Assembly (NCBI GenBank): GCA_015143295.1
Contig: CM026570.1
Span: forward strand, 24,559,250 to 24,623,249
From: Tetracentron sinense
Taxonomy: Eukaryota; Streptophyta; Magnoliopsida; Trochodendrales; Trochodendraceae
Reading direction: 5' to 3'
Length of the DNA stretch: 64,000 nucleotides
The notes beneath the pieces were generated by a model. That model was not told where the DNA came from. It was given only the letters and a program-made list of their open reading frames with translations, and did not search any database. How positions within the stretch are numbered: the stretch's first letter is position 1; every line of letters starts with the position of its first letter. Positions 28,921-63,546 of this stretch are shown here, piece by piece. Both the position numbers and the translations under genes were made by a program.

Positions 28921-29049
28921 AATGTCTGTGCATTGTAATTAGCTATATCAATAAATTTTAAGCAAAACACACCTAGAGTATAGGTAGCATGATATACACG
29001 TAAGTATACATATACAACATATAATAGCAATTTATACTTAAAAATTTTA

Positions 29050-38308: not shown

Positions 38309-38529
38309 ATGGCCATGGAAATCGGAAGATTGATATTTGTTCAATTAATTTTGATTTTCTTGTTCGTCTCCATAGTCTCTGCAAACGGTGTTTTTAGGGT
38401 GCAGCACAGATTTGCGGGTTTGGAGCCATCGCTGAAAGACCTCAAGGCCCATGATGATCGCCGCCATAATCGAATTCTCGCCGGCGTTGATTTTCCGATG
38501 GGTGGAAACGGCCATCCGACTGATGCAGG
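38309..38529 (+). CDS. Aspartic protease (family A1), exon 1
   Basis: Encodes the first 73 residues and two bases of the next codon. The start MAMEIGRL is chosen because its context (AAAATGGCC) is strong and no earlier ATG is in frame. Residues about 5-27 form a signal peptide (LIFVQLILIFLFVSIVSA). The propeptide then reads FRVQHRFAGLEPSLKDLKAH and RRHNRILAGVDFPMGGNGHP, which closely fits the start of plant aspartic protease-like proteins of the Arabidopsis A36/A39 group. The exon ends in GATGCAGG before the donor GTCTGT, phase 2. The completed glycine codon continues exactly into LYFAKIGIGTP of exon 2 at 63,014. The group is known as secreted or GPI-anchored enzymes active in pollen and other tissues. 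That role is from family, not from this sequence. Confidence 0.88.
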
Positions 38530-39116
38530 GTCTGTTATTCACCATTTTCATAGTTTCCCTTATTTTGTTTGTATTAGTTTATAAAGGGTTTTGCATGTGA
38601 TTTTGTTTTATTCTAGGTATATTTGAGTTCTTGAGAAAAGATTGTGTTGGTTTCTCTTTTTTGAGAATGAATTTTGTGGAAATTATATTGACTTATAGTA
38701 GATCATTAGGGCATTTATTTTTTTAATTTTGAATTTTATTTACGTAAGGGCATTTGGTGGCACAAATCCTTCTATTTTTTGAGTTGCTCCATTTGTAATG
38801 AGCCAATTGTGAATGGTCCTGATTGCAGTTGTTTCAGTTCATACTGATGGTCTGTTTGGTATGCCCTGTGAAAAGTATACTTATTTCAAATCAAATGTTT
38901 GTGCTTGTTGGTTGATCAAAAAAATATGAATTAAATGATCTATTATTTTTAAGAGAGAGAAAAAATGGATAGCGAGAAAGATGAATGTAGAATGATAAAT
39001 TAGTAGAGGAAGTACACGAATAAAAATAATATATACGGAATAAATGAAAAAAATAATAATGTTATTTATACGAGACATCCAAAGTTCCTTTGGTGAATGA
39101 CCCAATGGGTTGACAT

Positions 39117-39464
39117 CTCTGTAACAAAAAACTCCATTTTTTTCAAAAAATCGCGGATTATTCGCGCATTTTTGTTTTGCCGAATTATTCGCAAATTATT
39201 GGATTCCCGAAGTATTGGCAAATTATTTGTGAATTTTCCGAATTTTCCTGATTATTCCCGAATTTTTTGAATTATTCCCGAATTATTTTCACAAACTTGG
39301 CAAAAAACGACTTATTTTGTATATTTTTTAATCAAATTTTTTGGTATATTTTTATATTTATTAATTTATTTTTTATTTATTCCGAATATTTACTGAGTTT
39401 TTCCCAAATTTTTTTAAACTTGACCTCTGCCGAATTATTCCCGAACCCCGACTTTGTCACTATG
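39117..39464. mobile_element. hAT-type MITE, 348 bp
   Basis: A perfect 8-bp duplication, GTTGACAT, flanks it (39,109-39,116 and 39,465-39,472). The ends CTCTGTAACAAA and (backwards) CATAGTGACAAA are weakly inverted and recall those of the MITE at 13,790 (TGTTACAAA). The interior repeats GAATTATTCCCGAA-like phrases. Confidence 0.75.
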
Positions 39465-39689
39465 GTTGACATAAGTCAGTTCTAAGTGAATCCACCAGAT
39501 TTTTAATTAAATTAGAGAGATTAAGAAAAGCATTTAAATGACACTATATGATGGGCTTTAGCATCAAATCATCATCATCATATCCTTATCTCAGATATTA
39601 TGTGTGAATTTTGGAGGCACATGAAACAATCTTTTGCCATCTTCCATCTTCTATTTTGAAGGTGATCACATGTGAGAATTTTGTCTAGA

Positions 39690-40500
39690 GCGGCCGACCA
39701 GGGAAAAAAAGCAAATTTGGATGAAATTTTCTGGTTTCACACTTGCTTATGTGGGAAGGGATCTCCTTGAAGTACTCTAGAGGCCTTGTAGAGAGAACCT
39801 ACTGAAAACTGGTCCTTGCTATCACAAGACAAAATTCTAACATCTCCAAGATGAGGTAGAATATTAGTGAAGTGGAGGCACTCCAACAAACTAGATACGT
39901 TGTCGAACTCCCAATCCTGAAAGTTGCGTCTAAACCTCGAACACCAAGATATATTGTTATCCACTCTCTCAAAGCAAGATTCCACTGAGACATTCCTGCC
40001 TTCTGCTATTGACCACAAACCTCTAAATTCTTCTTTTAGAGAGAGGTGGCCACACCATTTGTCTGACCAAAATTTAACCTCGTATCCAGAACCTACTTTG
40101 AATGATATATGTCTAGAAAAAACCTGCCAACTTTTTATGATGCCTTTCCAAAGGCCACATCCGTGGGATGGACGGGTTTGGGATTCCATCTCAAAGCCTC
40201 TCCGTATTTATGAAAAATCGATTTTCTCCACGATGACTTCCTTTCGGTGCCAAACATCCACAACCATTTACCTAGAAGGACTTTATTCCACTCCACTAAA
40301 GGGCGAATACCCTAACCCCCCTTCCTCGAATGGGAGACAAATAGTCTTCCAATCCACCAAATTATATTTCTTGGGGCCATCTCTATCATTCCATAAGAAA
40401 TTGCGTTGAATTCTTTCCACAACTTTAGCCACTGCAGATGGGATGATGAAAAGTGAAAGAATATAAATCCGTAAGTTGTTAATAGCCTAACACTCTACTC
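39690..40500 (-). mobile_element. LINE fragment (3' part of ORF2)
   Basis: The minus-strand frame from 40,189 reads like the segment between reverse transcriptase and the C-terminal zinc-binding domain of plant LINEs (GLWKGIIKSWQVFSRHISFK, then VKFWSDKWCG). Diverged RT-thumb-like sequence continues to about 40,480. The 5' part is missing, as usual for truncated LINE copies, and the frame is interrupted. Confidence 0.75.
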
Positions 40501-41609
40501 CATAAAGCAGAGCTAGAGGCAACACTTTATTTCTAGCAACATGTTAAAATAAGTGTTAAATTACGTTTAATACTGCCTCCTCATCTATTGTCCATATTCT
40601 TCTACCATTCGTTGGTTCAAATGGTCTTACCATATAGTATTGACAATGAATCTCATAACATTCTTGCCCCATGTATTTTTCTTTTGATAGAGGTACCTCA
40701 TTTTTTATTGGTTGTAGGTGGTAGAGGTATACCTCCTTTTTTATTGTTTGTAAGCGGTAGAGGTACATCTCTGTGTGAGTATATATGAGTGAATCTCTAT
40801 TTGATGGGATCCATTTTGGGTATCACAAACATGCTCTTTACGCCTAATTGTCACCCCCAGTCTCAATGTGGATTTGTTGTGCAATTCATAAAGGGTTAGG
40901 ATTAATTTTGCTTTATTAAAAAATTAATTAAAACAACTCATGAAATTAGGCAACAATGGTACAAAGATTTCTTGTGGAATGGTAGGGAGAATGCTAGTAA
41001 GTGTCATTTGGTTGATTAGAATCAGTGTTCAAAAACTCGAGAACTCGACTGGAAAGTTAGCTGGGTAGAGTAACTCAGAAAACTTGAAAAAACTAGACTC
41101 GTCTGACTCGGAAATATATATATATATATATTATCAAACATAGATTAAAAAAAAGCTAACATTTCAATAAGAGTATCATCAAATAACCAACATTCAAGAT
41201 AAGTATTAAACATTCAAAGAAATCAGCATGTATGACTTAGAAAAAATCAGCAACTGTAAAGTGCTATGATGCCATCCTATTCGAGGGGGGGGGGGGGGGG
41301 GATATACCCCTAGCCAAAAGCATCTACCAATTAGTAACAAGAGATAGCCGACGCAAAAGCATAAATCCATCATTCTAATGAGAAGTACACTTCATACCTC
41401 TTAGACCTCTACCTCTCCTATCTGTCTGGATAAAGGGGATAGGATGGGTAGAAGCTTATTCATTCAGTCTCAAAGCGCGAATTCTCAAACGAGCATGAAA
41501 AACCAAGGAAATATGATACCCCAGATATATGCGGAAAGGGGAGTCGTTATAGGGTGTAAGACATAGTCGAGTATCTTTAATCTCAATGAGATAGATCATA
41601 AACCAGAGT
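40501..41609. other. Intronic, no gene seen
   Basis: Three short repeats of a GGTAGAGGTA phrase lie at 40,690-40,765, a TA microsatellite at 41,117-41,130, and a run of 17 G at 41,285-41,301. Otherwise unrecognised. Confidence 0.45.
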
Positions 41610-41840
41610 CAGTGCCTTTTGACATTAACCATGTCGACGATTTTGGACAAGAGGGGGTTAGGTTGGATTGTTCTCACTCTAAGGCAGATTAAGGGGGTAT
41701 CTGAGCAGGTCTTGGGCAAAATTGAGGGATTCGAGAAATTCTTGCGGCTATCCTTCGAGGGCCACGAGGAGGAGGTGAAGGGCTTATTCCAAAGCGTCTA
41801 AAACAAAAGTCGAGTCAGGGGTTAGTTCTAAATTTATAAA

Positions 41841-44800
41841 TGTTGTAATGGGTCATCTAAATAAGCCCATCTCAGCTTTATTATTTAGTTACTTTATTAT
41901 GTTTTAGTGTCTATTGTCGTTTATGTAATTAAGGGCATTTATGTCCTTTTATTTTGTTAGTAATATAAAAGAAGAATTAAAAGGATGGAGAAATTAATTT
42001 TCCATACCCTATATCCCTTCTTCATCTTCCACTCTCTCTCTTACACAAACCCTAATTTACTATTCCTAATTTTCTACTTGGTATCAGAGTAAGAAATCAA
42101 GACCTCATTTTTTAATGGCACGAATAGTAATGTGAATAGTGTCACGTGAATAGTGCTGCATGAATAGTGCCGCGTGAATTGGGTATAGTTTAATATTTTT
42201 GGAGTTAGGGTTGATTTTATGCTAAGTTTTTGGGGTAAAGTTAATATTTCATGTTCTTGAATGATTTTATGAAAAAAAATTAGATTTACATAATTCGAGT
42301 TTTTAAAAGGTTTCTGGGGTTGTTGATGGACATCGAGATCTACTATGAATTATTAGATCTTGAGTTATAAATGTGCGGATTCATTGGTTTTAACAAAGAA
42401 ATAGTTTAGAGTTTTTTTGGTGATTTTGTGGGATTCCGGGAACCCTAAAGTTGTTCCGTAAGCTGTTTTTGTGAAAAAACAATCATATTTAACCTCCGCA
42501 AGAAGCGTTGACAGTGTTTATTGTTGCTATTTTTGTGCTGAAAAAGTTGCTATTGACCTAATTAGTATTTTTTTGTGGAAGAGGTGTTACCTTTTGAATT
42601 GTTGGAATTTTTTTGGTATTTTTTGTGGCGGTGTTTGATTGTATGAAGTTGAAAAACCTTGGTGGAAGGTTGTGAGTTGCTGATTTGTATAAATCAGAAT
42701 TGATTAGACCTTTAGTTGAAGCGTTGTTGGTGTTTGAGAGATCTGACTTATTTACTTGTTTGGTTTTTTAATCCCTAAGTAAGACGTATGTCTGTGATTG
42801 GTGGTATAAAGGAACATCTAAGCATGTAGATCAATACGCATAGTGCCTCCATTGCTGATATTACATTTTTTATGGAATCCTTTATTATGCTACCTCATTT
42901 TCAATAGTTTTTCTAAGGACACCCTTCCAGTATTTAAAGAGGAACTTGAGCGCTTCAGTCAGTTACTTTCACAGATGTAGTTATCTTCTAGATATCCCAC
43001 TTTCGTTGCTCAGACAGGTACTCATGCATCTGCCTATCAGGTATCTTCATTAACCTCACATGGGATTCCTTGGATCATTGATTCAGGAGCCTCATATCAT
43101 ATGTCTGGTACATCCACACTTTTTTCGTCTTATAACTCTTGGGTCATTTGAGAGTGAAAATAGCCGATAGTTCCTTTGTATCTGTGATTGAGAAAAGAAG
43201 CATCCATGTCACCCCTATTCTCTCATTGTCATCTGTATTACATGTTTCTGGGTTTTCTGTTAACCTCTTTCTGTTAGTAGTTTAACTAAGCATCTGCATT
43301 GTAGTGTAACATTTTTTCCATCTCATTGTGCATTTCAGGATCTAGTGACACAACGACACATTGAGAGTGGAGGTAAAGTGGATGGGCTTTACATCTTGGA
43401 TCAGGCTCCTACTCCTATCTTTAGTGCTTTTCAGTCCCGTAGTTCTATTAACAAAGACCAGATTTTTCTCTAGCATCGTCGGTCGGGTCACTTGTCGTTT
43501 CAGTATTTAAAAATTTTGTTTCCTCGTTTGTTTGAGTTTGTCAATTTACAAAGTTTGTGAATTGGTAAAACATATTCGTATTTCCTTTTTCCCTAGTGAC
43601 CAAAAAAAAAGTTCATTTCCGTTTGAAATTGTCCATTCAGATGTATAGGGACCCTCTCCCACTTTATCATTGTTTGGATTTCAATATTTTATTTCGTTTA
43701 TTGATGAGTATTCCCGCTACACTTGGTTGTACCTGTTGAAAACTTAAGATGAGGTGCCCAATACTATTCACACATTTCATAACATGATCGGAAATCAATT
43801 TGACAAGAATGTTAATATATTTCGCCCTGATCATAGTCGCGAATACCTTAAAGGATAACTCAAGAGCTTACTTTGCTAAACATGAAATTATTCATCAAAA
43901 CAGTTGTATATACACGCCACAACAAAATGGAGTTGCGGAACGAAAGAAAAGCCATTTGCTTGAGGTTGTTCGAAGTTTGTTATTATAGATGAAAGTTCAA
44001 AAAAAGTTTTGGTATGAGGCAATGCTTACAACAACGTATTTGATTAACCAAATCCCCTCTCGGGTTTTGGATTTCAAGTCTACACATCAGTTATTGCGTC
44101 CTGAGACTTCTTTTAGTTTTCCGCTTCGCATCTTTGATTGTACTTGCTTTCTTCATATCCTGGGTCCAAACTCTTTCTAAGTTGGATCCTAAGTCCACCA
44201 AATGCTGATTATTAGGAAACATTTGATCCTGTAGCTAAAATGAAAACAATCTGAATTCTTCTTTCAGTAGCAGCAAATCAGTCTTTGACTCTCTTTCAGC
44301 TGGATGTGAACACTTTTTTCCATAGAGATCTCCAAGAAGAAGTTTATATGGCTTTACCTCTTGAGTTTAATGTTCAGAATCAAAAGAGTAAAGTTTGGCA
44401 TTTGAAGAAGGTAATTTATGGCCTTAAACAGTCCCCTAGGGATTAGTTCGAAAGGTTTAGTGGAGCTGTGAAGAAGTTTGGGTATACTTAATGTCACTCA
44501 GATGATACGCTGTCTGTGAAGCATTTGGGAAACACAACTACTGTTGTAACTAGAGATAACCCAAGGGAGATACAGAATCTTAAGGATTTTCTGGCCAAAG
44601 AGTTTGTGATTAAAGATTTGGTTTTACTCAGGTATTTTCTTGAGAGTTAGGATTGAAGTTGCCCACTCAAGGAAATGCATCTTTATATCTCAAAGAAAAT
44701 ATATCCTTGATCTGTTGGAAGACACTGGAAAGTTTGGCTCGAAACCTATGGTAACTCCTATGGAAACTAATGTTAAGCTTGACTATGAGAGTGACGAGTT

Positions 44801-46757
44801 GCTTGAAGATGTTGGTATATTCCATAGACTTATTGGTAGGCTGATAATGATTTACTTATTCTTGACTCGTCCCGATATTGCTTATACAGTGAGTGTAATC
44901 AGTTAGTTAAGCACAGTCCTAGGACTATGATTCAAAATATCGGTATCAGTTGCTGTATCGGTAAGTCCATAACAGGATACGTATCGACGTATTGGATGGA
45001 TACGATAGAAAAAATCAAGAAATGTTGGGATACGCAATGAAAAACTTAGATACCTTGCATAAAATTTCTTTTAATGCAAATTTAATCTATTAACAAAATA
45101 AATGAACCCACCAAAAAAAAAAAAAAAACTAAATGAAAGTCTCCAATTATGTTTATAACCATACATATGAGATTTAAGAATTTTATAAGTTAAAAAAAGG
45201 CATGCATGCTATACTGATAAGAAGATATAAAAATACAAACCATAATCACTTAGCTAAGTATAAGAAAAAAAATTTAGATATTAAAACCTTATATTCAATG
45301 AGTTAAATAAGAATGTATTGGATTACAACCATAAATTTGAAGCTTAATGTAAGTCTTTTTATGCTGAATTGTTACACTATTAGTTGACTTTTTAACAATG
45401 TAGATGAAAATATTTTTTAAGACTAATATATGAGACTTTTTTTGCCAAACTATTGGGTTTTCGTAATTTTTGATATAATAAAGTTTATGAAATTTTGATA
45501 TTTGAGAAATACCTTATCATTTGAAAGTTGGAATTTTGACCTAGTCCTTAAAAGGTGGTAAAAAGAGGATTTTGTTCTTGAACTGAAAGTTGACTTTTTA
45601 TTCTTCAGGAATTTGAATTAAGATAATTTTTATTGAATTCAAATGGGGGATAACCTTATTTGCATATTAATATCTTAAGGAAAAGAAAATAATATTAATT
45701 TAAAATCATTTACTTAAATAATATTCTATATAATTAAGTTGTGCGTATCAGGCCTGTGCTGTGGATCCTAATGTAAATGGAAGGAGAGAAAAAAGTTAAT
45801 TGAAAAATTCTCTATATCGAGCCTGTATCGGTTTGATACGGGGGAGTTTTTTTTTTCAACGTACCACTGTACCAGTGTATGGGTAGCTCTAAACATGATA
45901 CGTATCGGCCTATATCGGTCGATACGTATCGATATTTTAAACCATGCCTAGGACTACACTGAGGCAGTGGATCGAATTTTAAGATACTTAAAGTCTACAC
46001 CAGGTCGAGGATTATTATTCAGGCGGAATGAACACTTAAAGGTTGAGGCATACACAAATGCTGATTGGGCTGGGTTAGTCATAGATCGTTGTTCTACGTC
46101 AGACTATTGCACCATGGTTGGTGGAAATTTGGTTACCTGGAGAAATAAGAAATAGTCTGAGTTGCACACTCTAGCGCTAAAGTAGAACACAAAACCATGG
46201 CTCATGGAGCCCATGAGTTATTGTGGATCAAAACCTTGATGACTTAACTGGGTTTCTTAAACCCATCGGAGATGACATTCTATTGTCATAATAGAGCTGA
46301 TATTAGCATTGCACATAACCCAGTGCTACATGACAGGACTAAACATATTGAGGTTGACGGACATTTCATAAGAGAGAAGATAGCTTCGAAAATAATTAGT
46401 CTTGTCTTTGTAAGAACAAAAGATCAGTTAACAGATGTTCTTACGTAGGCAGTTGCTTCATCACGTCATCATGGGCTTATTGCCAAACTTGGCATGCTGG
46501 ACATTTATGCCCCGCTTGAGGAGAAGTGTTGTAACGGGTCATCTAAATAAGCCCATCGCAACTTTATTACTTAGTTATTTTATTATGTTTTAGTGTCTAT
46601 TATCTTTTATGTAATCAAGAGCATTATGTCCTTTCATTTTGTTAGTAATATAAAAGAAGTACTAAATGGATGGAGAAATTAATTTTCCATACCCTATTTC
46701 CCTTCCTTCTACCTTCTCTCTTACACAAACCCTAGTTTACTATTCCTAATTTTCTAC
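41841..46757 (+). mobile_element. Ty1/copia element, decayed
   Basis: LTRs of about 235 bp are at 41,841-42,077 and 46,527-46,757. A Met-type primer site (TGGTATCAGAG) follows the first and a purine tract (GAGGAGAAG) precedes the second. The order of recognisable parts is gag remnant, protease (IPWIIDSGASYHMSG), integrase (NGVAERK), reverse transcriptase (FQLDVNTFFHRDL, VIYGLKQSPR) and RNase H (LRYLKSTPGRGLLF). It is badly broken, with more than ten interruptions. The LTRs differ by several per cent, suggesting a few million years. It appears to sit within the LINE and is itself split by a hAT-like element. The flanking 5-mers agree only partly. Confidence 0.9.
44926..45946 (-). mobile_element. 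hAT-like element, copy A (1.02 kb), inside the copia element
   Basis: The ends are TATGATTCAAAATATCGG and, read backwards, CATGGTTTAAAATATCGA. A perfect 8-bp duplication, CCTAGGAC, flanks it (44,918-44,925 and 45,947-45,954), lying within the copia polymerase region. About 280 bp at the right end match, inverted, the left end of copy C at 58,542, so it is drawn on the opposite strand. The subterminal parts are full of ATACGTATCGG phrases. The interior is AT-rich without a transposase frame. Confidence 0.85.
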
Positions 46758-47099
46758 TAGAAACTCATTAGGTTATGGGAGGATCGCAAAAATGGAGCTC
46801 AGGAGATTAGAGTGCAGTGTCAATAACATGAAATTGTCATAGTGGTGTGTCTATTACTCCTTGATTGGAAGGGACCGTCAGTATCATAAATGACGGGTTT
46901 TTATTTACTTTTCCCGGATCATTAGATGGTTGGGCCAACTGGGGAAATGAGTCCTGATAAAACAGTTTGTGACATCAAAGATGCTATCAATTCTTTGTAT
47001 TTAAGAAACTAAATTGGAACACATCCAAGATTTTCATGTTGGGGAAGTATGGGGTGGTCTGGTTTTGAAATGGTTAGCCATTCCTTCGATAGGTGTGTT

Positions 47100-47116
47100 G
47101 GGGGGGGGGGGGGGGG
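47100..47116. repeat. Poly-G tract (17 G) in the LINE
   Basis: Falls where the LINE endonuclease frame has a glycine-rich site (IGVLGG...GVLMIWD), so it is an expansion of a short GG stretch in former coding sequence. Confidence 0.9.
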
Positions 47117-48516
47117 TCCTCATGATTTGGGATAAAGAAAGGGTTGATGTAATTATTAAGAGTTGGGGGCTTACTCAATCTCTATTCTGTGCAGGTCGAT
47201 AACTGAAGGAATTACTTAGGTCTTCTTGAGGGTTTATAGCCAAACGGGCGTTTAAGAGGATGTGGATATTTGGCATGACTTAGGAGATGTTAGGGTGAGA
47301 TTGGACTCACTACGGTGTTTGGGTGGGGACTTCAACCGCGTCCGCTTCTCTCATGAAAGGAAAGGGGTAGTTCTAGTAAAGCTAAAATGAGTAGATTTGA
47401 GAATTTCATATTCAACCATGGATTGATCGACTACCCTTTGAAAGGGGTCCAATATGCGTGGTCTTAGTTGGTCAGCGACTTATTGGCTAATAGGCAAGAA
47501 TCAAGATAGGTTTCTCTTCAACGAGGGTTGAGAGCAGTTGTTCCCAAATCTTATACAATTAACTCTTCCCAAACCTACTTCGGACCATGTCCCTATCATG
47601 TTGTGGCTAGAATGCATCAAGGGCGGCCCAACCCCTTTTTGGTTTTAAAATATGTGGCTTGAGGATGAGTGCTTCAAGGATTTGATTGCCAAAGTGTGGA
47701 GATCCGAACTAGGGTGGCGTTCAGCTAGACTAGGTTTAGCCTCAAATTAAAAGCTCTCAAATAAAAAATCAAGGCATGGAATAGGGAGATCTTTGAAAAT
47801 ATTCACGTAAGAAAGTGGAGTCTTCTTTGCACCATTGAGGAGCTAAAAGTTATCGAAAATTCGAGGCCTTTGTCGAGTGAGGAAGTTTTAAGTAAAGAGT
47901 TGAGAAGGGGGAATATTTGAAAGTTCTAAACTGGAGGCGATCAATTGGAAAAAGAAATCGCAAATCAGATGACTCGAAGAGGGGGATTGACTAGGTTCAT
48001 TCATAGAATGGCCAGTTTTCGCAAGAAAACAAAATTTTTTCTAGACTATTTGCGGATGGGGTTTAGAAGGAGAATAAAAGAGAGATTGAGGAAAGTGTTG
48101 TGTTCTACAAGGAATTATATAGGGAGAGACCTTTGGAGACCCAAGATGGATCGCCTGCCTTTCGACACCCCTTACTGAACAGAGGGAGTTTTGGAATGAT
48201 CTTTTGATGAGGAGGTGTTGCAAGCCATTTGGGATTTGGCCATAGATAAGGCCTATGGTCTTGATGATTCTCTATTATTCCTCTAGGTCATTTGGGACTT
48301 AGCCATAGAAAGACTTTCTAGAAGTCATGAAGGAGCTGTATAATACTAGCCAGGTCGAAGGTAATTAACAACACATTGTGGTGTTGATTTTTGAAGAAGG
48401 CAGGAGTCCAAGACATGAAGGAGTTACGTCTAATCAGTCTAGTGAGCAACGCCAATGAGATAATTTCTATGGTCATAGCGTCTGGATTGAAAAGTGTTTT
48501 TAGGATCCATTATATC

Positions 48517-49569
48517 GAAGGTATTAAACTTCGGTGTCGGTCTATACTTCAGTCGCTAAGGAAGTTGACACGTTTTATGGAAGTTTAAGGAAGTCTAAGG
48601 AAATTAGGGAAATAAAATTAGAAGAATTGTGTACATAAGCGTAAATACACATCTCCAATTCATTATATAACAAAAATGCAAGCATGTATAACATCGAATG
48701 CGAAAATCATGTCAAATGACATATGCTGTCTTAACTGTGCAGCTAAAATGTGCACGAATGAGTGTTTTACAACAAAACATCCCAAAAGAAAGAGAAATAT
48801 GATAAGATAACCTACATATTTCTTAAATTAGTGTCTATATATAATAAAAAAATATCTTTAATTTTAAAATCAAACAATAAAAAATTCCCAAAATAGAAGA
48901 ATAATTTGACAGTTGTAAAACGGGTGTATTTAATTAACATATAAAATACCCAAAAATACTAAAGTTTGGGGGTGAAATTTAGTGGAATTCGGATTTTCTC
49001 AATTTTTTCGAATTTCATCTACAAATCTAGTTTGAGTCCTCAAAATATATAAAGATATAAGTGTTTTTCTAGAAAATATTTAAGCCGAATCACTAAAAAT
49101 AAGTTTAAAACCCTTTAATGTAGGAATTGATTAATCAAATGGGAAAAATAGGCTTTTAAAAAACTAGTTTTTTCTTAACAAAAATAGATTAAGTCAGTCG
49201 ACTTTGGTTCATGTCGACCGAAGTCATGTAATTTATATAAGGTTTTGTAATATTCTGGTCGATATTATTGAAGTGTAATTGAAATTACCAAAACATGCTT
49301 GCAAAACCTTGTACTATTTACATTTTACACTTCAAGTGGATATCGTTCATCGATAATGAAGCCGAAATATTTCCACCAAAGTTTACCAAAATGTGTCGAT
49401 TTTGTAAACTATACATGTAGGTTTTGTGGCGATATGCAAGGAAGAGTTTCATAGGAAACGATAGGAAGTGTTGGACAATTCTATAATTTTGATGTCACAG
49501 GTAGATTTTGTGTCAATACCCAAGGAAACAAAAGTGTTTCGTAAGAAAGTGTCGATGTTTTAAACCATG
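48517..49569. mobile_element. hAT-like element, copy B (1.05 kb), inside the LINE
   Basis: The right end read backwards is CATGGTTTAAAACATCGACA, and the left end GAAGGTATTAAACTTCGGTG is a diverged inverted copy. The flanks ATTATATC (48,509-48,516) and ACTATATC (49,570-49,577) agree at seven of eight positions. It separates two neighbouring segments of LINE reverse transcriptase. Its interior differs from copies A and C, so it is a separate subfamily. No transposase frame. Confidence 0.7.
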
Positions 49570-50322
49570 ACTATATCCCCTCAACAAGGGGCGTTTGTGA
49601 GGGGGCAAACAAATTCTAGATGGATTATTAAAAGGCAACGAGTCCGTCGACGAGCATATCAGATTGAAGGTCCGTAGTATTCTTTGTAAAGCCAACATAG
49701 AGAAGGCACATGATCACGTCAATTGAAATTTTCTGGAATATCTGATGAACTGAATGCGTTTTGGTGTTAGTTGGAGGAGGTCGATGCTAATGTTTATTTG
49801 AATTTTCTCGATTTCCATCCTTTTGAATGGAAGTTCGGTTGGCTACTTTAAAAGCTTTAGATGTTTGAGACAAGGGGATCCCCTATCACCGTTTCTATTC
49901 CTAGTATCAGAAGCTTTGAGTATGATGATATCTAGAGCAAATTGTGGCACGTTTGAAGGTTTTTTAAAGGTTAGGAGAATTTGCGGATATCTTATTTTCA
50001 ATTTGCTGATGATACTCTAGTTTTTTTAACAACCTAAATTGGCAACTGGTCTGCCTTAGATTTTTTTAGGTGCTTCAAAGCAGTGCCTGGCCTAAGAGTC
50101 AACTTAGGTAAGTATGAGTTTGTGAGGGTCGGAGAGGTCCCGAACCTGGAGGAACTTGCAACTTGCTGGGGCTGAAGGGTGGGGTCCATACTGTTTGTAT
50201 ACCTAGGGGTACCCCTCGGTTCCAAATTTAAATCCAAGGAGGCATGGTCCTCAGTAGTTGAGACATTTGTTCGACGATTGGCAGAGTGAAAATCAACCTT
50301 TTTATATAAAGGAGGGAAATTG

Positions 50323-52739: not shown

Positions 52740-52912
52740 TTCTCCCCCTCTTACAAAAATTTCGTCCTCGAAATTTGGACAATGCGTGCTTTACAATTTA
52801 AACAACTTAGCATAACAATTCGAAACAAAATTATAAGTTATACCCAAAATCATTCAAACAACTCGGGGTACTTCGCCTTGACTTCGGCCTCACGTTCCCA
52901 TGTAGCCTCTTC

Positions 52913-55900
52913 TCAGGCGTGATGTTGCCATTGCACGAGAACTAGCGGAATAGTCTTGTTGCGAAGTACTTGGTCTCTTCGATCCAAAATATGAACCGGC
53001 TTCTCAACCAAAGTGAGATCCTCTCGAATCTCAACCGAATCAAGCTCGATGACATGAGAAAGATCCGGGATGTACTTCCGAAGCTGGGAGATATGAAACA
53101 CGTTGTGGACCGCAGCCATGTGAGCGGGCAAAGCAACACGGTAAGCCACCTCGCCAACTCGAGTAATGATCTCGAACGGACCCACATATCTCGGGCTAAG
53201 CTTGCCTCTCTTCCCGAATCGCATAACACCTTTGGTCGGTGAAATCCTTACAAACACAAAATCACCTACTCGGAATTCAAGATCCCTCATTCGGTTGTCG
53301 GCATAGCTTTTCTGTCTATCTTGTGCGGTCTTCAACCTCTCCCGTATAAGCTTGACCCTATCCGCGGTTCGTTCAATCAACTCGGGGCCCAAAATCTTTC
53401 TTTCTCCCACTTCATCCCAATACAACGGGGATCTACAACTTCTTCCGTATAAGGCTTCGAAAGGTGCCATTTGTATGCTTGCTTGATAACTGTTATTGTA
53501 GGCGAATTCCACCAAAGGTAGGTGATCCTCCCAACTTCCTTTAAAATCCAACATACAAGCTCGGAGCATGTCTTCTATCACTTGATTCACCCTCTCTGTT
53601 TGCCCGTCGGTTTGTGGGTGGAAAGCTGTGCTAAAGTCTAACCGGGAGCCCATTGCACCTTGAAAACTTTTCCAAAACCTGGATGTGAATCTTGGGTCTC
53701 TATCCGACACAATACTCACTGGCACCCCATGCAATCGGACTATTTCTTTGATGTATAGCTCTGCTAACTGATTGGAGTTGAATGTAGTCCGGCATGGTAA
53801 GAAATGAGTGGACTTCGTGAGTCTATCAATAACTACCCATATAGCATCGGTCTTCTTGACCGTCTTCGGCAATCCCACGATGAAGTCCATAGAGATATGT
53901 TCCCATTTCCACTCGGGAATAGGGAGAGACTGCAAAAGTCCAGCCGGTCTCCTGTGTTCGGCTTTGACTTGTTGGCACACCAAGCATTTAGACACATACT
54001 CCGCTATTTCTCGCTTCATGTTCCGCCACCAAAAATGCTTCTTCAAGTCCCTATACATTTTGGTACCCCCGGGGTGAACGGTGTACTTGGACCGGTGAGC
54101 CTCGTACAAGATTTCTCGCTTAAGCTTCTCATCGGCTGGGACACATACTCTTCCCTTGAAAGTGATAATTCCATCTTCCCTCGCCGTAAAGTCCTTACTA
54201 CCACTTTTAACTGACTTGTCTCGGCAAGAAAGTAGTTCGGCATCCATTTCCTGTAACTCCTGGATCATGCTCAACATAAATGGCCTAACTGTGATGTTAG
54301 CCATTACCGGCCCATAGGTAGGGAGACTAAAACTGATGTCGAGGTTGGATGCATCCTCCAGCAATCTCCACTCCTTCAGCATCATATGCGCCAAAAGTCC
54401 AGTAGGCTTCCGGCTAAGAGCATCGGCTACTACATTTGCCTTGCCCGGGTGGTATTGAATGGAGCACTCATAGTCTTTCAAAAATTCTACCCATCTTCTT
54501 TGCCTCAGGTTCAACTCTTTCTGGGAAAACAAATACTTAAGGCTTTTATGATCTGTGAATACCTCAAATTGTTCCCCATAAAGATAATGTCGCCAAATCT
54601 TTAATGCAAACACAACTGCGGCGAGTTCTAAGTCGTGAGTGGGGTAATTCTTTTCATGCTCTTTCAATTGTCTTGATGCGTAGGCAATGACTTTGCCGTG
54701 CTGCATAAGTACACATCCCAACCTCACATGTGAGGCATCACTGTAAACCACAAAACCACCACTCCCGGATGGCACAGTAAGGACGGGGGCCGTGGTGAGG
54801 CGTTTCTTCAACTCTTGGAAGGTCGCTTCGCATCTGTCGCTCCAACTAAACTTAGCATTCTTCCTCGTCAGGTAAGTGAGAGGTGCAGCCAAACTGGAGA
54901 ATCCCTCCACAAATCTCCGGTAATAGCCTGCCAACTCGAGGAAACTACGTATCTCCGTGACGCTCTTGGGCCTCTCCCAACTCATGACTGCCTCAACCTT
55001 GGCTGGATCTACAGAAATACCCTCGGCAGACACTACGTAGCCTAGGAACGCCACTTTCTCTAACTAGAATTCACACTTGCTCAATTTGGCATATAGCCTA
55101 TGCTCTCTCAACATCTCTAGAGCAAGGCGGAGGTCTCGTGCGTGATCTTCCCGTGTCTGGGAATACACCAAAATGTCGTCGATGAATGCAATCACGCATC
55201 GATCCAAGTGAGATCGGAATACCCGGTTCATCAAATCCATGAATGCCGCCGGTGCATTCGTCAGCCCAAAAGGCATGACAAGGAACTCGTAATGCCCATA
55301 CCGAGTCCTGAAAGCCGTCTTCTGAACATCTTCCGCCTTGATCCTTAATTGGTGATACCCCGATCTAAGATCAATTTTGGAGAAAAATCTCGCTCCCTTC
55401 AGTTGGTCGAACAAGTCGTCTATCCTTGGCAAGGGATAACGATTCTTGATAGTTACCTTGTTCAACTGACGGTAGTCTATACACATTCTCATCGACCCGT
55501 CTTTCTTCTTTACAAAAAGGACCGGAGCTCCCCACGGTGACACACTTGGTTGGATGAAACCAAGTTGTTGTAACTCCTCAATCTGTTTCTTCAATTCTTC
55601 CAGCTCTATAGGGGCCATTCTATATGGTGCCCTTGAAATCGGAGCGGTACCCGGAGCAAGCTCTATAGCGAATTCGATCTCTCTATCAGGAGGTAATCCG
55701 GGAAGTTCTTCCGGGAACACATCTAAGAACTCACTCACAACTGGAATAGCCGATGAGTTTTGTGCTTCTGGGTGTGCTATACTCAAGGCTGCGAGGCGAG
55801 CAATGTCCCTCTCTCTTAATCCTCGGAAGTGAAAAGGCTTACCCCCTTCCGGCTTGAAATTTACCATCTTTTCAAAACACGCAACATGCCCGTGATGGTT

Positions 55901-56170
55901 TGCCAACCAATCCATACCAAGAATGACGTCAAAGTCTAAATCTTGGAAATCCAAAATGATAAGATCGACCACTAGTTCATTCTCCCCTACTTGAACCACA
56001 CAATCTCTGAATATCTTGTTCGTGTCAACTGACTTACCGAGTGGAGTTGCAATGGTCAACTCCCGCTCTAACGGAATAGCCTCAGTCAAAAATCCCTTCG
56101 CGAAACTAGGTGACACAAAGGAGTGAGTGGATCCTGTGTCGATCAACACTCGGGCGAGACACTCGTTCAC
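52913..56170 (-). mobile_element. Protease-polymerase region of gypsy element 2
   Basis: In coding order: aspartic protease ([20 protein letters not shown]), reverse transcriptase ([30 protein letters not shown]), RNase H ([25 protein letters not shown]), integrase (a HPGGTKMY zinc-finger side, then [10 protein letters not shown] and [14 protein letters not shown]) and a chromodomain-like end ([11 protein letters not shown]). Well conserved along its length. Confidence 0.93.
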
Positions 56171-56289
56171 TAATAAAGCGCCTGTGCGATTGAGTAGCTA
56201 CTATTAGTAGATTTCAAACAATAAGCATCATACATAGGTAGCCCTTAGTATAGAAACTCACAAAACAAACCATAGAAATTTTTACACAA

Positions 56290-57572
56290 ATTAAACCCTA
56301 GAATTCGTGCGTACCTTGCACGACATCGTCGGATGCACGTGTGTCTCTCTCCGATAGGGCGAAGACTCGGCCCTGAGTGGCTGGGCGAGGAGGCCGGGTA
56401 GACTGTGAGGCCCTCGAAGCCTGAGAAGAGCTAGGCTGAGATGTCTGCCTAATCGGGGGCCTGCTCCCCGAAGACTGAGCTGGCAAGCGATGTCGGGGAC
56501 AATCCCGAATCATGTGGCCCTAGTCGCCACAATGAAAACAGCCTCCTGTAGCCTTCCGACATTCCCCTGCTGGATGCCTCATTCCACAAAGGGTGCAGAC
56601 ATCATGTGAATAAGTGGGAGGAGTATAACCCGTAGCCTGAGTCACTGAGGGGCGAGGAGCATACGAGGTAGCCGGGCGAAAAGCCGGTGGAGCAAAAGGG
56701 CGGGGAGCCTGTGGTGTCGAGTACATCCTCTGTGACTGAGTCGGCCCTGCGGACTGATAAGACATAGTCCTAGCTCTCTTCTCCCCTGAACTACTAGAGT
56801 GTCCTTTCTCCATTCCTCTTCTCTTAAAGAACTCTTCGGAATTCGACTCGGCCAATAGTGCCTTGTCCACAACTTCTGAATATGTCTCATGTCGGAACAT
56901 TGAGACACGATCCTTGAGGTAGGCCTTCAACCCCCTCTCGAATTTCCGGGCCTTCATAGCCTCGGTAGCTATCATGTGTGGAGCAAATCGAGATAGCTCT
57001 GAGAACTTGGCTTCGTAAGCCGCTACAGACATATTACCTTGCTCCAAGGTAATAAATTCAATTTCTTTCTTTTCTTTCATCCCAACCGGAAAGTATTTCT
57101 TGTAGAAAACGTCCAAGAATTCTCCCCATGTCCATTCTTGGCCTTGCCGGGTCAACTCTCGGGTCCGAAGTGCAGACTTCCACCAATGGTCGGCCTCGCC
57201 TTCAAGCATAAAGGCAACCCATGTGACCCTCTCTACTTCCGTAGGTGCCAAAACCGAGAATATCTTCTCAAGTTGTCGAATCCAACCCTCGGCGACAAGT
57301 GGATCAATGCTTCCACAAAAAGTTGGAGGCCTCATCCTCCGGAAAGCTTCTATCCCGTCTTGGGCTCGGTTAGGAGGAGCCGGTATAAGTGCCGCATTAG
57401 GCGGAGTGGCCGGTTGCCTTGCCGCCAACATAGCCAAAGTCTCGGCTATGGATGCGAATGCTTGGGCAAAGTCGGGTTGATCATCACCCGATTGAGCATC
57501 ACCTCCATTACTCCTCGTGTTGTACCCGCGACCCCGGGTATTGCGTCTCATGATTTCTCCTGAGAACGACAA
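56290..57572 (-). mobile_element. gag region of gypsy element 2
   Basis: Capsid-type segment (GEADHWWKSALRTRELTRQG, FLDVFYKKYFPVGMKEKKE), a Pro/Ser/Gln-rich linker and a CCHC zinc-knuckle stretch (GGCFHCGD), typical for Tekay-type gag. Confidence 0.9.
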
Positions 57573-57858
57573 TACAACATGAGTCTAACTTGGATACGCA
57601 TTTAGTACAATTTTCGCAATTCACTCAATACATATTCATCAAGCATATTTAATAAGCATAACACAATTAACGCACACATGGTATACACAACAATGGCATC
57701 ACATACAATCCATGTTCCTAGTGTAGGACTCTATGTTCGGCTGAAGTTCAACCTACTTTGACTAGGACTAACTTGTTAGTCCATACTTGGAATACAACTA
57801 ATGCCTTGTTCAATCATGGTCTCTAGTACTATGCGACCCTAGGGACTCTAATGCCTAG

Positions 57859-57872
57859 AGCTCTGATACCAC
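57859..57872 (-). other. Primer binding site of gypsy element 2
   Basis: TGGTATCAGAGCTC on the minus strand, complementary to the 3' end of initiator Met tRNA, three bases inside the 5' LTR. Confidence 0.85.
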
Positions 57873-58541
57873 TTCTGTCACGCCCCAAAATACCCCCTAG
57901 GAGTTAAGGGATACTTTAGAGGTGACTACGTGTACCTGTCAAACCATCCTGTAATGCAAGAGGCTAAACATAATATAATACAATGATAATCAGAGCGCGG
58001 AAACTAAACATAAGTGCGGAAGCATAAGCCAACTTTTTCTTTTCTTCTATAACTCCAAATAGTATTCCAAGTTAACATATACCAAATACAATCAAAGTAT
58101 AGGTGGATATGCCCACCTATCAAAATACAAAAAGGAACTCTCTAACCCTCTCCTCTCAACAGTAGTCGAGGTATGGCCACACATCCAAGTCCCCATCCTC
58201 CTGAGACTGCCATGGGATAGGAGGCTCCCTCTCCTCTACATACTCCTCCTCGACCCAAGGCTCGGGGTCGAGGAAGTACCTGCCGACATAAAAGTACGGT
58301 TGAGCATGGAATACTCAGCGAGTACAAACTACTAGCTAACCATAACAATAACGAAAGCATAACAACAGTGAGCAATACAAGATATTAATTTAAAGCAATA
58401 GTGAAAGCATAAGATACATAGCCATATCTTGACATGCGTATATGAATGCAAAAACCTCGGTAAAACTCATGTCTTGGAAACCTTTTTCGTGTCTCGGTCA
58501 AATCATGTATGTGTATCGTGTCTTGTCTTGTATTTCATGTC

Positions 58542-59504
58542 CATGGTTTAAAATATCGATACGTATCGACCGATACAGGCCGATACGTATCTTATTTAGA
58601 ACTACCCGATACACTGGTACGCTGGAAAAAAAAACTTCACTGTATCAGGCCGATACAGGCCCGATATACTCGATACGGAGATTTTTCAGTTAATTTTTTT
58701 TCTCTTTCCATTTACACTAGGATCCATACTACAGACCTAATACACAACTTATTTTCATAATATATTATTAAGTCAATTATTTTAACTTGATTTTAGTTTC
58801 ATTTACTTTAGATATTAATATGTAAATAAGGTTATCCCCCTGGTTATGATACCTCAACCCAACCCTACTTATCAGGAGCCACTGGTTATGATGCACAGTC
58901 CCAATCTTTGACTGACAGTTATAGATAGATCACGACCCAGCAGCAGCCACATGTACAAATGTACCTGGAAATGTACCGCACAATGATGACTTAGACACAG
59001 TGGTGCCATCATTTTTGGACCACTTATAATGCATCACTCTACTCAATTCCTGATCTCACAATAATAGAGTATAAGCCAACACGAAGCTTAATGTGGTATT
59101 GAGCTTCTATCATATATGTAATTTGATTTGTGAATACAAGGGTCTATGTATTTTCATATTTTTGATTTATGAATGCAAGTGAGCTTCTATCACTTGATTA
59201 AATAACTATGGTTTGTATTTTCATACATATTTATCAGCGCGCACGCCTTTTTTAACTTATAAATTATTCTCATATGTATGATTATAAATGTAGTTGGAGA
59301 CCTTCATTTAGTTTGTTTTTAGCTTATATTGGTATTAAAAGAGGTTTTATGCAAGGTATCCAAGTTTTTCCTTACCTATCCAAGCATTTTTTAGCGTATT
59401 CTGAATTTTTCCGCCGTATCCAATCGATACGATACCGATACGCCGATACGTATCCTATTTTGGACTTACCGATACGGCGATCGATACCGATATTTTGAAC
59501 CTTG
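58542..59504 (+). mobile_element. hAT-like element, copy C (963 bp), inside the gypsy LTR
   Basis: The ends are CATGGTTTAAAATATCGATA and, read backwards, CAAGGTTCAAAATATCGGTA. A perfect 8-bp duplication, TTCATGTC, flanks it (58,534-58,541 and 59,505-59,512). The other LTR of the same gypsy element gives the empty site, with a single TTCATGTC, which proves the boundaries. Subterminal regions hold many GATACGTATC and CCGATACAGG phrases. The middle keeps what looks like the tail of a coding region (58,846-59,102). Confidence 0.92.
58846..59102 (+). pseudogene. Possible transposase C-terminal remnant in hAT-like copy C
   Basis: One frame of about 86 codons reads like protein: YDTSTQPYLSGATGYDAQSQ near the start, then a Gln/Met/Tyr-rich part (TTQQQPHVQMYLEMYRTMMT), a WCHHFWTTYNASLYSIPDL stretch and the end SLMWY before a stop at 59,100-59,102. 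Two earlier in-frame stops lie at about 58,924 and 58,990. A Gln/Tyr/Trp-rich tail ending in an aromatic pair occurs in some plant hAT transposases, but I could not confirm the family. Copy A lacks this part. Confidence 0.4.
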
Positions 59505-62500
59505 TTCATGTCTTGATTTGTTCTTGACTTGTATACTTGTGAGCCAGAGGCTAGCACCCTTCCTTGGGCTACCAACCTCCTTGTCATGTTCTTGTTCCAT
59601 TTCTCTTGTGAGCCAGAGGCTAGCACCCTTCCTTGGGCTACCAACCTCCTTGTCATGTTCTTGTTCCATTTCACTTGTGAGCTAGAGGCTAGCACCCTTC
59701 CTTGGGCTACCAACCTCCTTGTCATGTTCTTGATTCATTTCACTTGTGAGCCAGAGGCTAGCACCCTTCCTTGGGCTACCAACCTCCTTGTCATGTTCTT
59801 GATTCATTTCACTTGTGAGCCAGAGGCTAGCACCCTTCCTTGGGCTACCAACCTCCTTGTCATGTTCTTGTTTCATTTCACTTGTGAGCCAGAGGCTAGC
59901 ACCCTTCCTTGGGTTACCAACCTCCTTGTCATGTTCTTGTTTTGTTGTTGATTCATCATGTATGAATACAATCTTGGAAAACCCGGTTTCATGCATGCAT
60001 GCGTACTCGTGTGCGTGCCAATAGTGACAATCATGGGGATACGTGTAACAAGAGGGATATCGCATCATATTTCAATTCATAGTATAACATATAGGAATTT
60101 GAGTAATCTAAGTGGCATTTGAATAGTTCATCATTCATAAGAACACATGCATAAGGCCTACTTTCATTTTCTTCATTTATGTCATTTATCCCTAGTTTAA
60201 GCATTTTGTCAAACACATAACATGCAAGGTTCCTTAATGGTTCATCTTCTTCTTTTTAGTGCATACTTTCCATCCAAAAATCAAGGTATGTTCATTATTG
60301 GTAAAATGCCCATCCTCCATTTTTCCATTCTACACGCCACACATTCATACATCATGCATTCGGCATCCCATCGCCTCAATCAACCTCTCATCCATGCATC
60401 CACACCATTTTCCTCATCTTGTTTATATTTAGTGAATATGACACATTTCATAAGGGAGAAATACATAGTAGCAACAATCATATATATCATAGAAAAACTA
60501 GGTTATTGTTAGGGGAAGTTAGTAGGGTGTACTAACCTTAGATCAAGGTTTGATCTTGAAGAAACCTTGAAATAGAAGCTCTATTTGGAAGGAGGAAGCC
60601 TTTGCTTGAAGGGGACTTGAGTTGGAGAAGAAACCCCTTTCAAAAACGTGAGTGAGTGCTGCCCTAGCTTGGAGAATGCACCTCCACCCGAGCTTGAGTT
60701 GAAATCTTGAAGAAAACGTGCTTGGGGACGATCTAGGGTCTTCACCCCTTTGATTTCTTCTCCAAAAGCAACCTAGGTTTAGGAAACCCTTTTCTCTTCT
60801 CTCTTATCTCCCAAATCTCTCTAAGTATAGTGAATGATGCCCTAAGGCTCGGGCAAGCCTTAAGGAGAAAGGGTTTAACCCCCAAAAGACGATAAAGCCC
60901 TTACTGAAATTTCTGCAAAAACGCGAAGACCGAGCGATCGGTGGTTATGACCGATCGATCGGTTGCCTACTGAGCGATCGGTGTTTATGACCGATCGATC
61001 GGTCAAAAACTCACTCTCTGGAAAATTTCCCCATACAAAATTTCTGACCGTGCGATAGCTACCGATCGATCGGTTATGGACCGATCGATCGCTGACTGGA
61101 CCGAGCGATCGGTGCTCTGTATGTCTGGACTGTTTTGACCATATCTTTTGACTCGCTCGTCGGATTTCGACGATTCAACTTGCGTTGGGTTCGTCTTTCG
61201 AAAACGCACATTTCTGACGTTTCGGAATTTCTAATTTCTCCCTTATTTATTAATTAGACTACGAAAACGGCCAATTAGCTATGAAAGTGCCATTCATTAA
61301 AGATGAAAAAGTCCGGGGTGCTACAAATTGACCCTCATCAAATGCACTATGAGTAGTCTCCCACCATACTTTATTGCCACTATTACCATCTTATGTTCGA
61401 TAGCTACCAAACTAGAGCGTTTGCAGGGAGAGTTCCTTTAGAACAAGAAAATGGATAAATTTAAATATCATTTGGTTGTGTGGGATCAAGTTCATTGTCT
61501 GATAAGGGATGAGGGTTTGAATTTGAAATCTTTGGTAGAGTTGTAGAGGTGAAGAAGATCTTGCTATGCAAATGCGTGACGTTTTGGGGAGGAGGGGTAA
61601 TTTATTGTATAAAATGTTATAATGGCCGAATATGAGGAATCATCTGGTTGGAACCCGAGGGAGGTTAGTGGCTCTTATGAGGTGGGGCTTTAGAAATGGA
61701 TAATAACGATGGCTAGTTTGTTGCCCCTTATATTAAGTTTAAGGAATGCGACAGTTCAGAAGTTGGCTTCTGGAAGGATTTGTGGAGTGGGCCGATGAGA
61801 GTAAAGGACGAATTTGGAAACATTTTTTCGCTCGGTTGTGTTAGGAACGCCTTAGTCACAGATTGTTTCGAGTTGATTGAGAATGGAGTGTTTTGTTGCC
61901 CTAGGTTGAGGCAAGATTGGAACGATTTGGAAGTAGAACATTTTTGTCTTCTGCAGCATCTCAGCACCTTCTTCCCATGCCCCTAGGTCAGGTATAAAAG
62001 GATCTAGAGGCAACAATGGTTGATTTTTAGTGAGGTCATTATTACAATCATTCATTACTTTACACTTGTCCCTATTTCTCTATAGGTTTGTGTAGAATCC
62101 TGTAAATCCATCAAACGTACCTTTCTTCCTAGAATCCTATAAATCTCTCGAAAATGTATCTTTCTTCCTATGGACTGTGGCTCTAAAGAAGATTCTTACG
62201 TGTGACCATTTGAAAAATAGAGGGTGAAGGATGACTAACTGCTATTATTTGTGCCTTCACGCGGAAGAGTCGGCGAATTACTTGCTTTTGCATTATGGGG
62301 TCATTTTCTCTCTCGTCTGGGAGTGGATTGGGTTTTCCCTTCTTGATTTTAGAACTTTTTATCTTGTTGGTTCCTAGTGAGTTGGGATAGTGCTCATGAG
62401 GCAATTTGGTCCGTCCTTCATGGGGCATTTCATGATCAATTTGGAAGGAGAGAAACAAGAGAGTATTGAAGGACTCTCCCTCTTCGGTTTCATGTTTTTA

Positions 62501-62776
62501 TATGAGAATCAGATATATGATTTGAGTGGCGTCTTGCTCGTCAAAAGGGTGTGGATTGGGCAACTTTTTAGGGTGGGAAGCGTGTTCTATAGTGAAAAGT
62601 GCGGCTTCTAGCCTTGACTCTGTATAGGGAATTCTCTATTCCTGTCAGTTTAGTTTTCCTTGTTTTTCGAGTTTACATCCTAGTAAACTCTCTCTCTTAT
62701 TATTGTTGTAGCTGTTGAGGTGATATTTTTCCTTTAATATAATTTGCTGATTACCGATCAAAAAATAAAAAAAGGG

Positions 62777-63013
62777 AATGGTTTCATTTTAAATGGAACA
62801 ATTTACAAATTTTGGTACATTTAATTGTCCCATTATCTTATAAACTATTATTAAAAATTCACTGTTTAGATCAAAAATAGTCTTCATATTTTGATCTTTT
62901 ACCATTGATTTATTGTGAAGAATACTATCTTCATCTCTTTGTGATTTTTATTTGTCCTATGATATTCTTTTCTTTTGTTTTTGTAGTGACGCTTATTTGG
63001 TTTGTTCTTTTAG
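62777..63013 (+). other. 3' end of protease intron 1
   Basis: AT-rich intron sequence with a T-rich stretch (CTTTTCTTTTGTTTTTGTAG near 62,967-62,986) and the acceptor TTTGTTCTTTTAG used here. The TTTTTGTAG at 62,986 is a possible alternative acceptor. Confidence 0.6.
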
Positions 63014-63143
63014 GCTTTACTTTGCTAAAATTGGGATTGGGACTCCTTCAAAGGACTACTATGCTCAAATAGATACAGGAAGTGACATAATGTGGGTGAA
63101 TTGCATAGAGTGCAGCCAATGTCCGAGGACAAGCAGCCTCGGT
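63014..63143 (+). CDS. Aspartic protease (family A1), exon 2
   Basis: Begins with the G completing the glycine codon from exon 1, then LYFAKIGIGTPSKDYYAQID. It carries the first catalytic motif, Asp-Thr-Gly-Ser, in QIDTGSDIMWVNC, and a Cys-rich ECSQCPRTSSLG end typical of plant A1 enzymes with extra disulfides. It ends at GGT before the donor GTATGC, phase 0. The second catalytic Asp would lie in later exons beyond the window. The reading frame is clean, with no stop or missing key residue, so the gene looks alive despite the 24.5-kb intron before this exon. Confidence 0.9.
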
Positions 63144-63298
63144 GTATGCTTGTTCTTCTATTACATGTCTTGTTCCCAATTCCTTCCTCACTTCTTGGTT
63201 CAACATTATGTCATTCACAATTATTGCTTTGAAATATTAAACTTGAATTATTATAATGTTTTTTCTGATATATATGTTTGAATCTTTCGTTTGTACAG

Positions 63299-63546
63299 AT
63301 AAAATTAACACTATATGATCCAAAGGACTCTGCAACTGGAACATTGGTTACTTGTGATCAAGATTTTTGCAATGCCACATATGAAGGTCTAATGCCTAAT
63401 TGCTTCAATAATACACCCTGTACGTATGGTGTGGCTTATGCAGATGGAAGCTCAACTTTTGGATACTTTGTAGAAGATTTTGTACAATATAATCGAGTTT
63501 CTGGAAACCTCCAAACCACATCGGCAAACGAAAGAGTTATATTCGG
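63299..63546 (+). CDS. Aspartic protease (family A1), exon 3
   Basis: Follows a 155-bp intron (acceptor TTTGTACAG). Starts IKLTLYDPKDSATGTLVTCD, continues with DQDFCNATYEGLMPNC, then CTYGVAYADGSSTFGYFVED, the flap region whose Tyr covers the active site in A1 proteases. It ends VSGNLQTTSANERVIFG at the donor GTGAGT, phase 2. Spacing of cysteines and the DGSSTFGYF motif match the Arabidopsis A36/A39 type. The gene continues past the window end. Confidence 0.92.

Follow-up and report, generated by a model that had tools for sequence, protein, structure and literature searches.

Large transposons within introns are tolerated by plants, and how transcription and splicing cope with them is an active question. 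In rice, according to one study, heterochromatic introns occur in about 11% of gene models; they have a greater length and are enriched at promoter-proximal positions, many lie in transcribed genes, and the mechanism involves OsIBM2 (PMC7145194). In Chloranthus spicatus, another study reports that long terminal repeat (LTR) elements swell long genes as a genome-wide trend (PMC8626473). Among plant A1 aspartic proteases, the genes of group II, which includes A36 and A39, average 8.53 introns (PMC9937552). The locus described here lies in a 64,000-bp stretch of the Tetracentron sinense genome (assembly GCA_015143295.1, contig CM026570.1, here C20; C20:24559250-24623249), which we call the window and number from its first base; genome-wide searches covered the 1.16-Gb assembly, and C1322, C14, C741, C10, C826 and similar labels denote other contigs of the same assembly. 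It is very probably a single A1 protease gene, with nine exons or more, whose first intron grew from a short ancestor by layered transposon insertion and which is most likely still functional.

Gene Structure and Predicted Product

The gene lies on the forward strand. Reading of the sequence places exon 1 at 38309-38529, with the start codon, a hydrophobic, signal-like N-terminus (judged by eye) and the propeptide; it ends in GG at phase 2 and is followed by the donor GTCTGT. Intron 1 (38530-63013; 24,484 bp, GT-AG) leads to exon 2 (63014-63143; acceptor TTTTAG, donor GTATGC), which holds the first catalytic motif, DTGS, and is matched by PF14543 at C20:24622267-24622374. Exon 3 (63299-63546) is followed by the donor GTGAGT. 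An earlier annotation made from the letters of the window alone (the sequence-only reading) had given these three exons with their splice sites and matching phases, and a first intron of about 24.5 kb, all of which are confirmed here. It was incomplete in showing three exons, because the window ends; the gene runs on past exon 3. A profile search found further TAXi_N and TAXi_C matches on C20 downstream of the window, and six more forward-strand exons were located there by protein search followed by reading of the sequence: exon 4 (extended coordinates 79337-79561), exon 5 (106395-106557, carrying the DSGT motif), exon 6 (106640-106713), exon 7 (130884-130974), exon 8 (133589-133661) and exon 9 (135981-136052).

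At least nine exons make up the gene, which stretches across 97.7 kb (C20:24597558-24695301). Joined, the nine exons make 1,297 nt in frame, with GT-AG borders at all eight introns between them; introns 1 to 8 measure 24,484, 155, 15,790, 26,833, 82, 24,170, 2,614 and 2,319 bp. The three further giant introns (the third, fourth and sixth) lie outside the window (C20:24622796-24690132; extended coordinates 63547-130883), and the gene spans some 98,000 bases because transposons have accumulated in its introns.

The product scored with Pfam, comprising the nine joined exons and eight residues read past exon 9, exceeds the cut-offs for TAXi_N (E value 1.9e-39; 136.1 bits, cut-off 30), Asp (7.1e-26; 91.8 bits, cut-off 19.9) and TAXi_C (4.9e-21; 75.6 bits, cut-off 23.9), and holds two catalytic D-T/S-G motifs, DTGS from exon 2 and DSGT from exon 5. 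It is predicted to be a pepsin-like plant A1 aspartic protease, both lobes of which are recognized by family models. The best sequence matches among solved structures are two entries for plasmepsin V (E values 5.2e-13 and 5.5e-13), a distant relative of the product within the pepsin family. The A36/A39-type label assigned by the sequence-only reading fits only in general layout, that is, in the many introns. A36 and A39 act in pollen and ovules.

Composition of the First Intron

Four transposon-derived segments enclose 21,688 of the 24,484 bp of intron 1 (88.6%, a figure that counts everything between segment borders, beyond the stretches with direct matches), in keeping with the earlier description of an intron made almost wholly of nested transposons. 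The nesting occurs at exact sites: a Gypsy element, whose empty site is found on C1322, lies within a LINE-like element (long interspersed nuclear element); a hAT-like element lies within one of the Gypsy LTRs; and a relative of it lies within a Copia element.

The Ty3/Gypsy LTR retrotransposon occupies 50323-61325 on the reverse strand, antisense to the gene; it is 11,003 bp long, has TG..CA ends and is flanked by the 5-bp duplication AATTG. Its first LTR (50323-52739; 2,417 bp) contains a 69-bp tandem array at 51018-51356, and its second (57876-61325) holds a 963-bp insert and a longer array of the same unit at 59535-59942, both LTRs likewise lying on the reverse strand. With 4.9 copies of the unit in one LTR against 5.9 in its partner, the array seems to have changed length since the element inserted. 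The coding region between them (52913-57584, reverse strand) is broken up by stops; a domain search places gag at 56520-57584, protease and reverse transcriptase at 55064-56197, and RNase H and integrase at 52913-55063, so that the Gypsy order of gag, protease, reverse transcriptase, RNase H and integrase is preserved. The integrase core is below its cut-off (23.0 versus 32.6 bits), whereas the integrase zinc-binding domain is above (66.4 versus 25.5 bits). With the tandem array and the insert excluded, the LTR pair differs at 10 of 2,041 aligned sites (K = 0.0049), which at assumed rates between 4e-9 and 1.3e-8 per site per year would date the insertion to about 0.2-0.6 million years ago. The LTR family is common in the genome; 40 matches were scored of 9,969 candidates, and all 40 reach at least 87%, two of them being the LTRs of the element itself.

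The insert in the second LTR (58542-59504; 963 bp, strand not assigned) has imperfect inverted ends and an 8-bp duplication, TTCATGTC, and the first LTR of the pair provides its empty site. We take it to be hAT-like from the length of the duplication and the inverted ends. A second element, of about 1 kb (44931-45946, reverse strand), shares three stretches with it at 76-82% identity and has, by eye, the 8-bp duplication CCTAGGAC on both sides. This hAT-like element sits in an old, decayed Ty1/Copia element (41841-46758, forward strand), the terminal repeats of which (41838-42078 and 46524-46758) are 90% identical by self-alignment and which retains RVT_2 (E value 4.7e-14) and Pol_BBD (4e-6) domains. 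The flanks of the Copia element, inspected by eye, read ATAAA and AGAAA and show no clear target-site duplication.

The element split by the Gypsy insertion runs on the forward strand from approximately 47243, its 5′ border being approximate, to an A-rich tail ending at 62773. Outside the gene it has 13 matches within 47243-49572 (71-77%) and 14 matches reaching 62765 (65-75%), and at the protein level it is similar to a stretch in an intron on C14 with a reverse-transcriptase-like motif. For the part at 49573-50322 the genome search gave no match at its threshold; this part is assigned to the element by protein similarity and by its position within the borders. None of four short pieces of the element matched a Pfam model at an E value of 0.05 or below, and no target-site duplication of eight or more bases was found around it; the name LINE-like is our assumption from a reverse-transcriptase motif (FADDT) and the A-rich tail.

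Two dispersed repeats lie near the 5′ end of the intron, neither assigned a strand. The one at 39105-39472 has one scored match elsewhere (C3:44709249-44709636, 85%). The other, of about 870 bp (39611-40482), is present in many copies, with at least 37 matches outside the gene at an E value of 1e-60 or below (40 scored of 4104 candidates); each of the 37 has its start or its end no more than about 10 bases from a border of the repeat.

A Second Copy, a Paralogue, and the State of the Gene

Contig C1322 (69 kb) carries a second copy of the locus, and its first 60 kb were compared with C20, aligning in seven blocks. Five blocks exceed 97% identity and together show 286 single-nucleotide polymorphisms (SNPs) in 46,609 columns (0.61%); the count leaves out two blocks, of 94.5% (the start of C1322) and 93.4% (54.6-60 kb), and the true difference is therefore larger at the two ends. 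C1322 keeps exons 1 to 4 in the order found on C20, with 822 of 824 bases identical (220 of 221 in exon 1) and both changes synonymous. On this contig intron 1 measures 15,785 bp, and two insertion events account for most of the difference from the 24,484 bp on C20. The 11,003-bp Gypsy element is absent from C1322, which has a single AATTG at the empty site where AATTG flanks the element on C20. Conversely, C1322 has a 2.3-kb insertion (C1322:17945-20243) with TG..CA ends and an AGCCA duplication, where C20 has one AGCCA and no insertion. No LTR pair of its own was seen within this insertion, which has the appearance of a solo LTR. By eye it resembles the Gypsy LTR at its ends and in a CGATCGGT-rich stretch, and it probably belongs to a related family.

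These comparisons bear on the integrity of the assembly. Repeat-rich regions are prone to assembly error, and intron 1 might be a misjoin of unrelated places; this is extremely improbable, as a separate contig keeps the exon order, both large intron 1 differences have borders that coincide exactly with target-site duplications, and the window contains no N.

C1322 is most likely the other allele of the C20 locus. Other aspartic protease genes likewise pair a large with a small contig (C11/C1291, C2/C1339 and C17/C1036), which suggests unmerged haplotypes. The contig is unplaced and two of its blocks are less alike, as would suit a recent duplicate residing elsewhere, in which case the 11-kb difference would separate copies and not alleles. 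We consider this quite unlikely given the low SNP rate of the remaining five blocks, the recurrence of the same contig pairing, the occurrence of just two intact copies of exon 1, one on each contig, and the visibly poor consensus of the last part of C1322. Damage in exon 5 on C1322 was considered as the mark of a broken second allele and rejected; dense single-base insertions and deletions affect exon and intron alike. The end region looks like low-quality consensus and was excluded as evidence, including for pseudogene status.

The joining of exons 1 and 2 into one gene, proposed by the sequence-only reading, is borne out by the order on C1322 and by a paralogue on C14, in which exon 1 (C14:17793347-17793564) is separated from exon 2 (from 17793806) by an intron of only 241 bp, with the same junction and phase. 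The borders of the giant intron can be compared with those of this short one. At the 3′ end, 19 of the last 21 bases match, as good a match being given by none of 1399 other AG ends, and by none when the comparison is repeated at 15, 30 and 40 bases; at the 5′ end, 15 of the first 21 bases match, equalled by none of 1341 other GT starts. When 300-base pieces were aligned unanchored, no shuffle of 500 did as well as the 3′ end, and the two intron ends scored 40 and 33, against 31 or less for 237 other pieces of intron 1. The 3′ end of the C14 intron still resembles that of the giant intron, the 5′ end more weakly.

Exon 1 with its edges, searched as DNA against the whole genome, matched five places: C20 itself, C1322 (99%) and three degenerate pieces (77-80%). 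The pieces (C741:78507-78701, C10:20407822-20408016 and C826:381913-382107) have the same 26-bp deletion, and those on C10 and C826 are 94-95% identical to that on C741 across 3 kb. An intact exon 1 of this gene was found nowhere beyond C20 and C1322 in DNA and protein searches of the genome, and the same searches reported nothing else matching exon 1 in the stretch from 38,529 to 63,014; the second intact exon 1 close to 63,014 that would have made 38309-38529 a stray fragment is not among the matches. It is very unlikely that exon 1 is such a fragment, left upstream of a working gene that starts near exon 2. The long distance of 24.5 kb and the three degenerate pieces, which imply that exon 1 sequence has been copied about, speak for this possibility, but the pieces lie on other contigs and share their deletion, neither search reported another exon 1 in between, and in the C14 paralogue exon 1 immediately precedes exon 2, with identical phase.

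A protein match crossing the junction of exons 1 and 2 raised the idea that the pieces on C741, C10 and C826 are processed retrocopies without the intron. This was ruled out, since on C741 exon 1, with its 26-bp deletion, runs into intron-like sequence, GGGTATGTT; the pieces are DNA-level copies and are therefore no evidence for splicing. On all three contigs the 5′ leader and exon 1 piece lie inside a unit that is 3 kb long or more. Repeated motifs close by resemble transposon ends by eye, and a DNA transposon may have captured the exon.

The gene is under purifying selection relative to its paralogue. Over exons 1-6, the C20 gene and the C14 paralogue have a synonymous divergence (dS) of 0.41, a nonsynonymous divergence (dN) of 0.157 and a dN/dS ratio of 0.38 (0.29 for exon 1 alone). 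Exons 1-4 contain 634 nonsynonymous sites, and no amino acid has changed there between C20 and C1322, against 3.9 changes expected at the 0.61% SNP rate (Poisson P about 0.02); the 2 synonymous changes, at coding positions 124 and 597, compare with 1.15 expected. This one small test argues for a gene still under selection and, together with the open frames, agrees with the earlier view that the gene looks usable. It is rather unlikely that this copy is dying or silent, its introns having passed the tolerated size while the C14 copy does the work. In favour of that reading are the weak donor of exon 1 and four introns that each measure 15-27 kb. Against it stand nine open exons, the paralogue dN/dS and the absence of amino-acid changes between C20 and C1322, and the C14 copy also has giant introns, as judged from match positions.

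Several observations count against a functional gene with an expanded ancestral intron. The exon 1 donor GTCTGT is weak relative to the plant donor consensus. The match at the 5′ end of the intron is uneven; at 15, 30 and 40 bases it is equalled by 6 of 1341, 5 of 1340 and 3 of 1338 GT starts, 36 of 500 shuffles did as well in the unanchored 300-base test, and the best unanchored alignment was misplaced within the C14 intron. The dS relative to C14 varies widely by exon group, from 0.21 (exon 4) to 0.81 (exon 1), and the dN/dS between paralogues mostly dates from before the recent insertions. Finally, a donor-like GTGAGT comes after exon 9, so that either there is a further exon or the frame runs on for eight codons to a stop, and the 3′ end of the gene model is provisional. 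No tenth exon was identified beyond exon 9, and no glycosylphosphatidylinositol (GPI)-anchor tail was found in the product as far as this provisional end.

Match positions in three relatives (C14:17793347-17855114, C7:14382264-14406593 and C11:13632593-13639539) give intron lengths for comparison with C20. Intron 4 is long in all four genes, at 26.8 kb for C20, about 11.3 kb for C14, 16.8 kb for C7 and 3.5 kb for C11, and in none of them does intron 2 exceed about 0.16 kb; some introns of the protease gene may tolerate insertions better than others.

Elsewhere in the window, upstream of the gene, the reverse strand encodes a 443-residue open frame (4098-5429) with a weak ELM2 match (23.7 bits, cut-off 21.7; 27 of 53 positions). 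A second, broken Gypsy-type retrotransposon lies at 26065-28938, also on the reverse strand, with protease and RNase H fragments above the cut-off and an integrase fragment below it.

Implications and Comparison with Known Systems

The history we propose for intron 1 begins with a short ancestral intron, like the 241-bp intron of the C14 paralogue, which would have reached 24.5 kb by layered insertions: an old Copia element, a LINE-like element, hAT-like elements, and the young antisense Gypsy element nested in the LINE-like one. The insertions would have filled the intron and left both splice borders in place, so that the transcript could be spliced across the whole nest at the original borders. 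The gene would thus be transcribed and correctly spliced, and most likely still yields a secreted protease because the splicing machinery would remove the whole nest with intron 1. The intronic elements would presumably be silenced by chromatin marks, an arrangement like that of the heterochromatic introns of rice being likely. Effects of such an intron on splicing, polyadenylation and DNA methylation, which the sequence-only reading had raised, are plausible by analogy with work in other plants.

The locus is a dissected case, combining a short paralogue intron, exact nested borders and insertions present or absent between near-identical copies. The C20 copy carries the young 11-kb antisense Gypsy element and the C1322 copy a 2.3-kb solo-LTR-like insertion, with no amino-acid difference in exons 1-4. 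If the two are alleles, the effect of an insertion on RNA and methylation is testable within one plant, against a constant trans-acting background. It is conceivable, though less likely than not, that within one nucleus the two yield unequal amounts of full-length transcript or are unequally prone to premature polyadenylation; were this true, the cost of an intronic insertion could be read directly, allele against allele.

Comparison with described systems places the gene among familiar ones. The likeness to A36 (AT5G36260) and A39 (AT1G65240), of group II subgroup II-D, is that of intron-rich genes, with at least eight introns here and a group II average of 8.53 (PMC9937552). The signal-like N-terminus (by eye), the DTG and DSG motifs and the TAXi_N, Asp and TAXi_C domains are also shared with the subgroup; the difference is in size, the gene here extending over 97.7 kb. 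Like the rice heterochromatic introns, intron 1 is long, transposon-filled and promoter-proximal, in a gene apparently under selection; it differs in that nesting and a difference between near-identical copies are resolved here at exact sites (PMC7145194). With Chloranthus spicatus the locus shares LTR elements as a main cause of long introns, in a gene longer than 20 kb with an ordinary coding length; in that species the pattern is a genome-wide trend, whereas here one gene is dissected to its insertion sites (PMC8626473). Transposon-swollen introns are well known in plants, and this locus is a clear new example of them, though no new kind.

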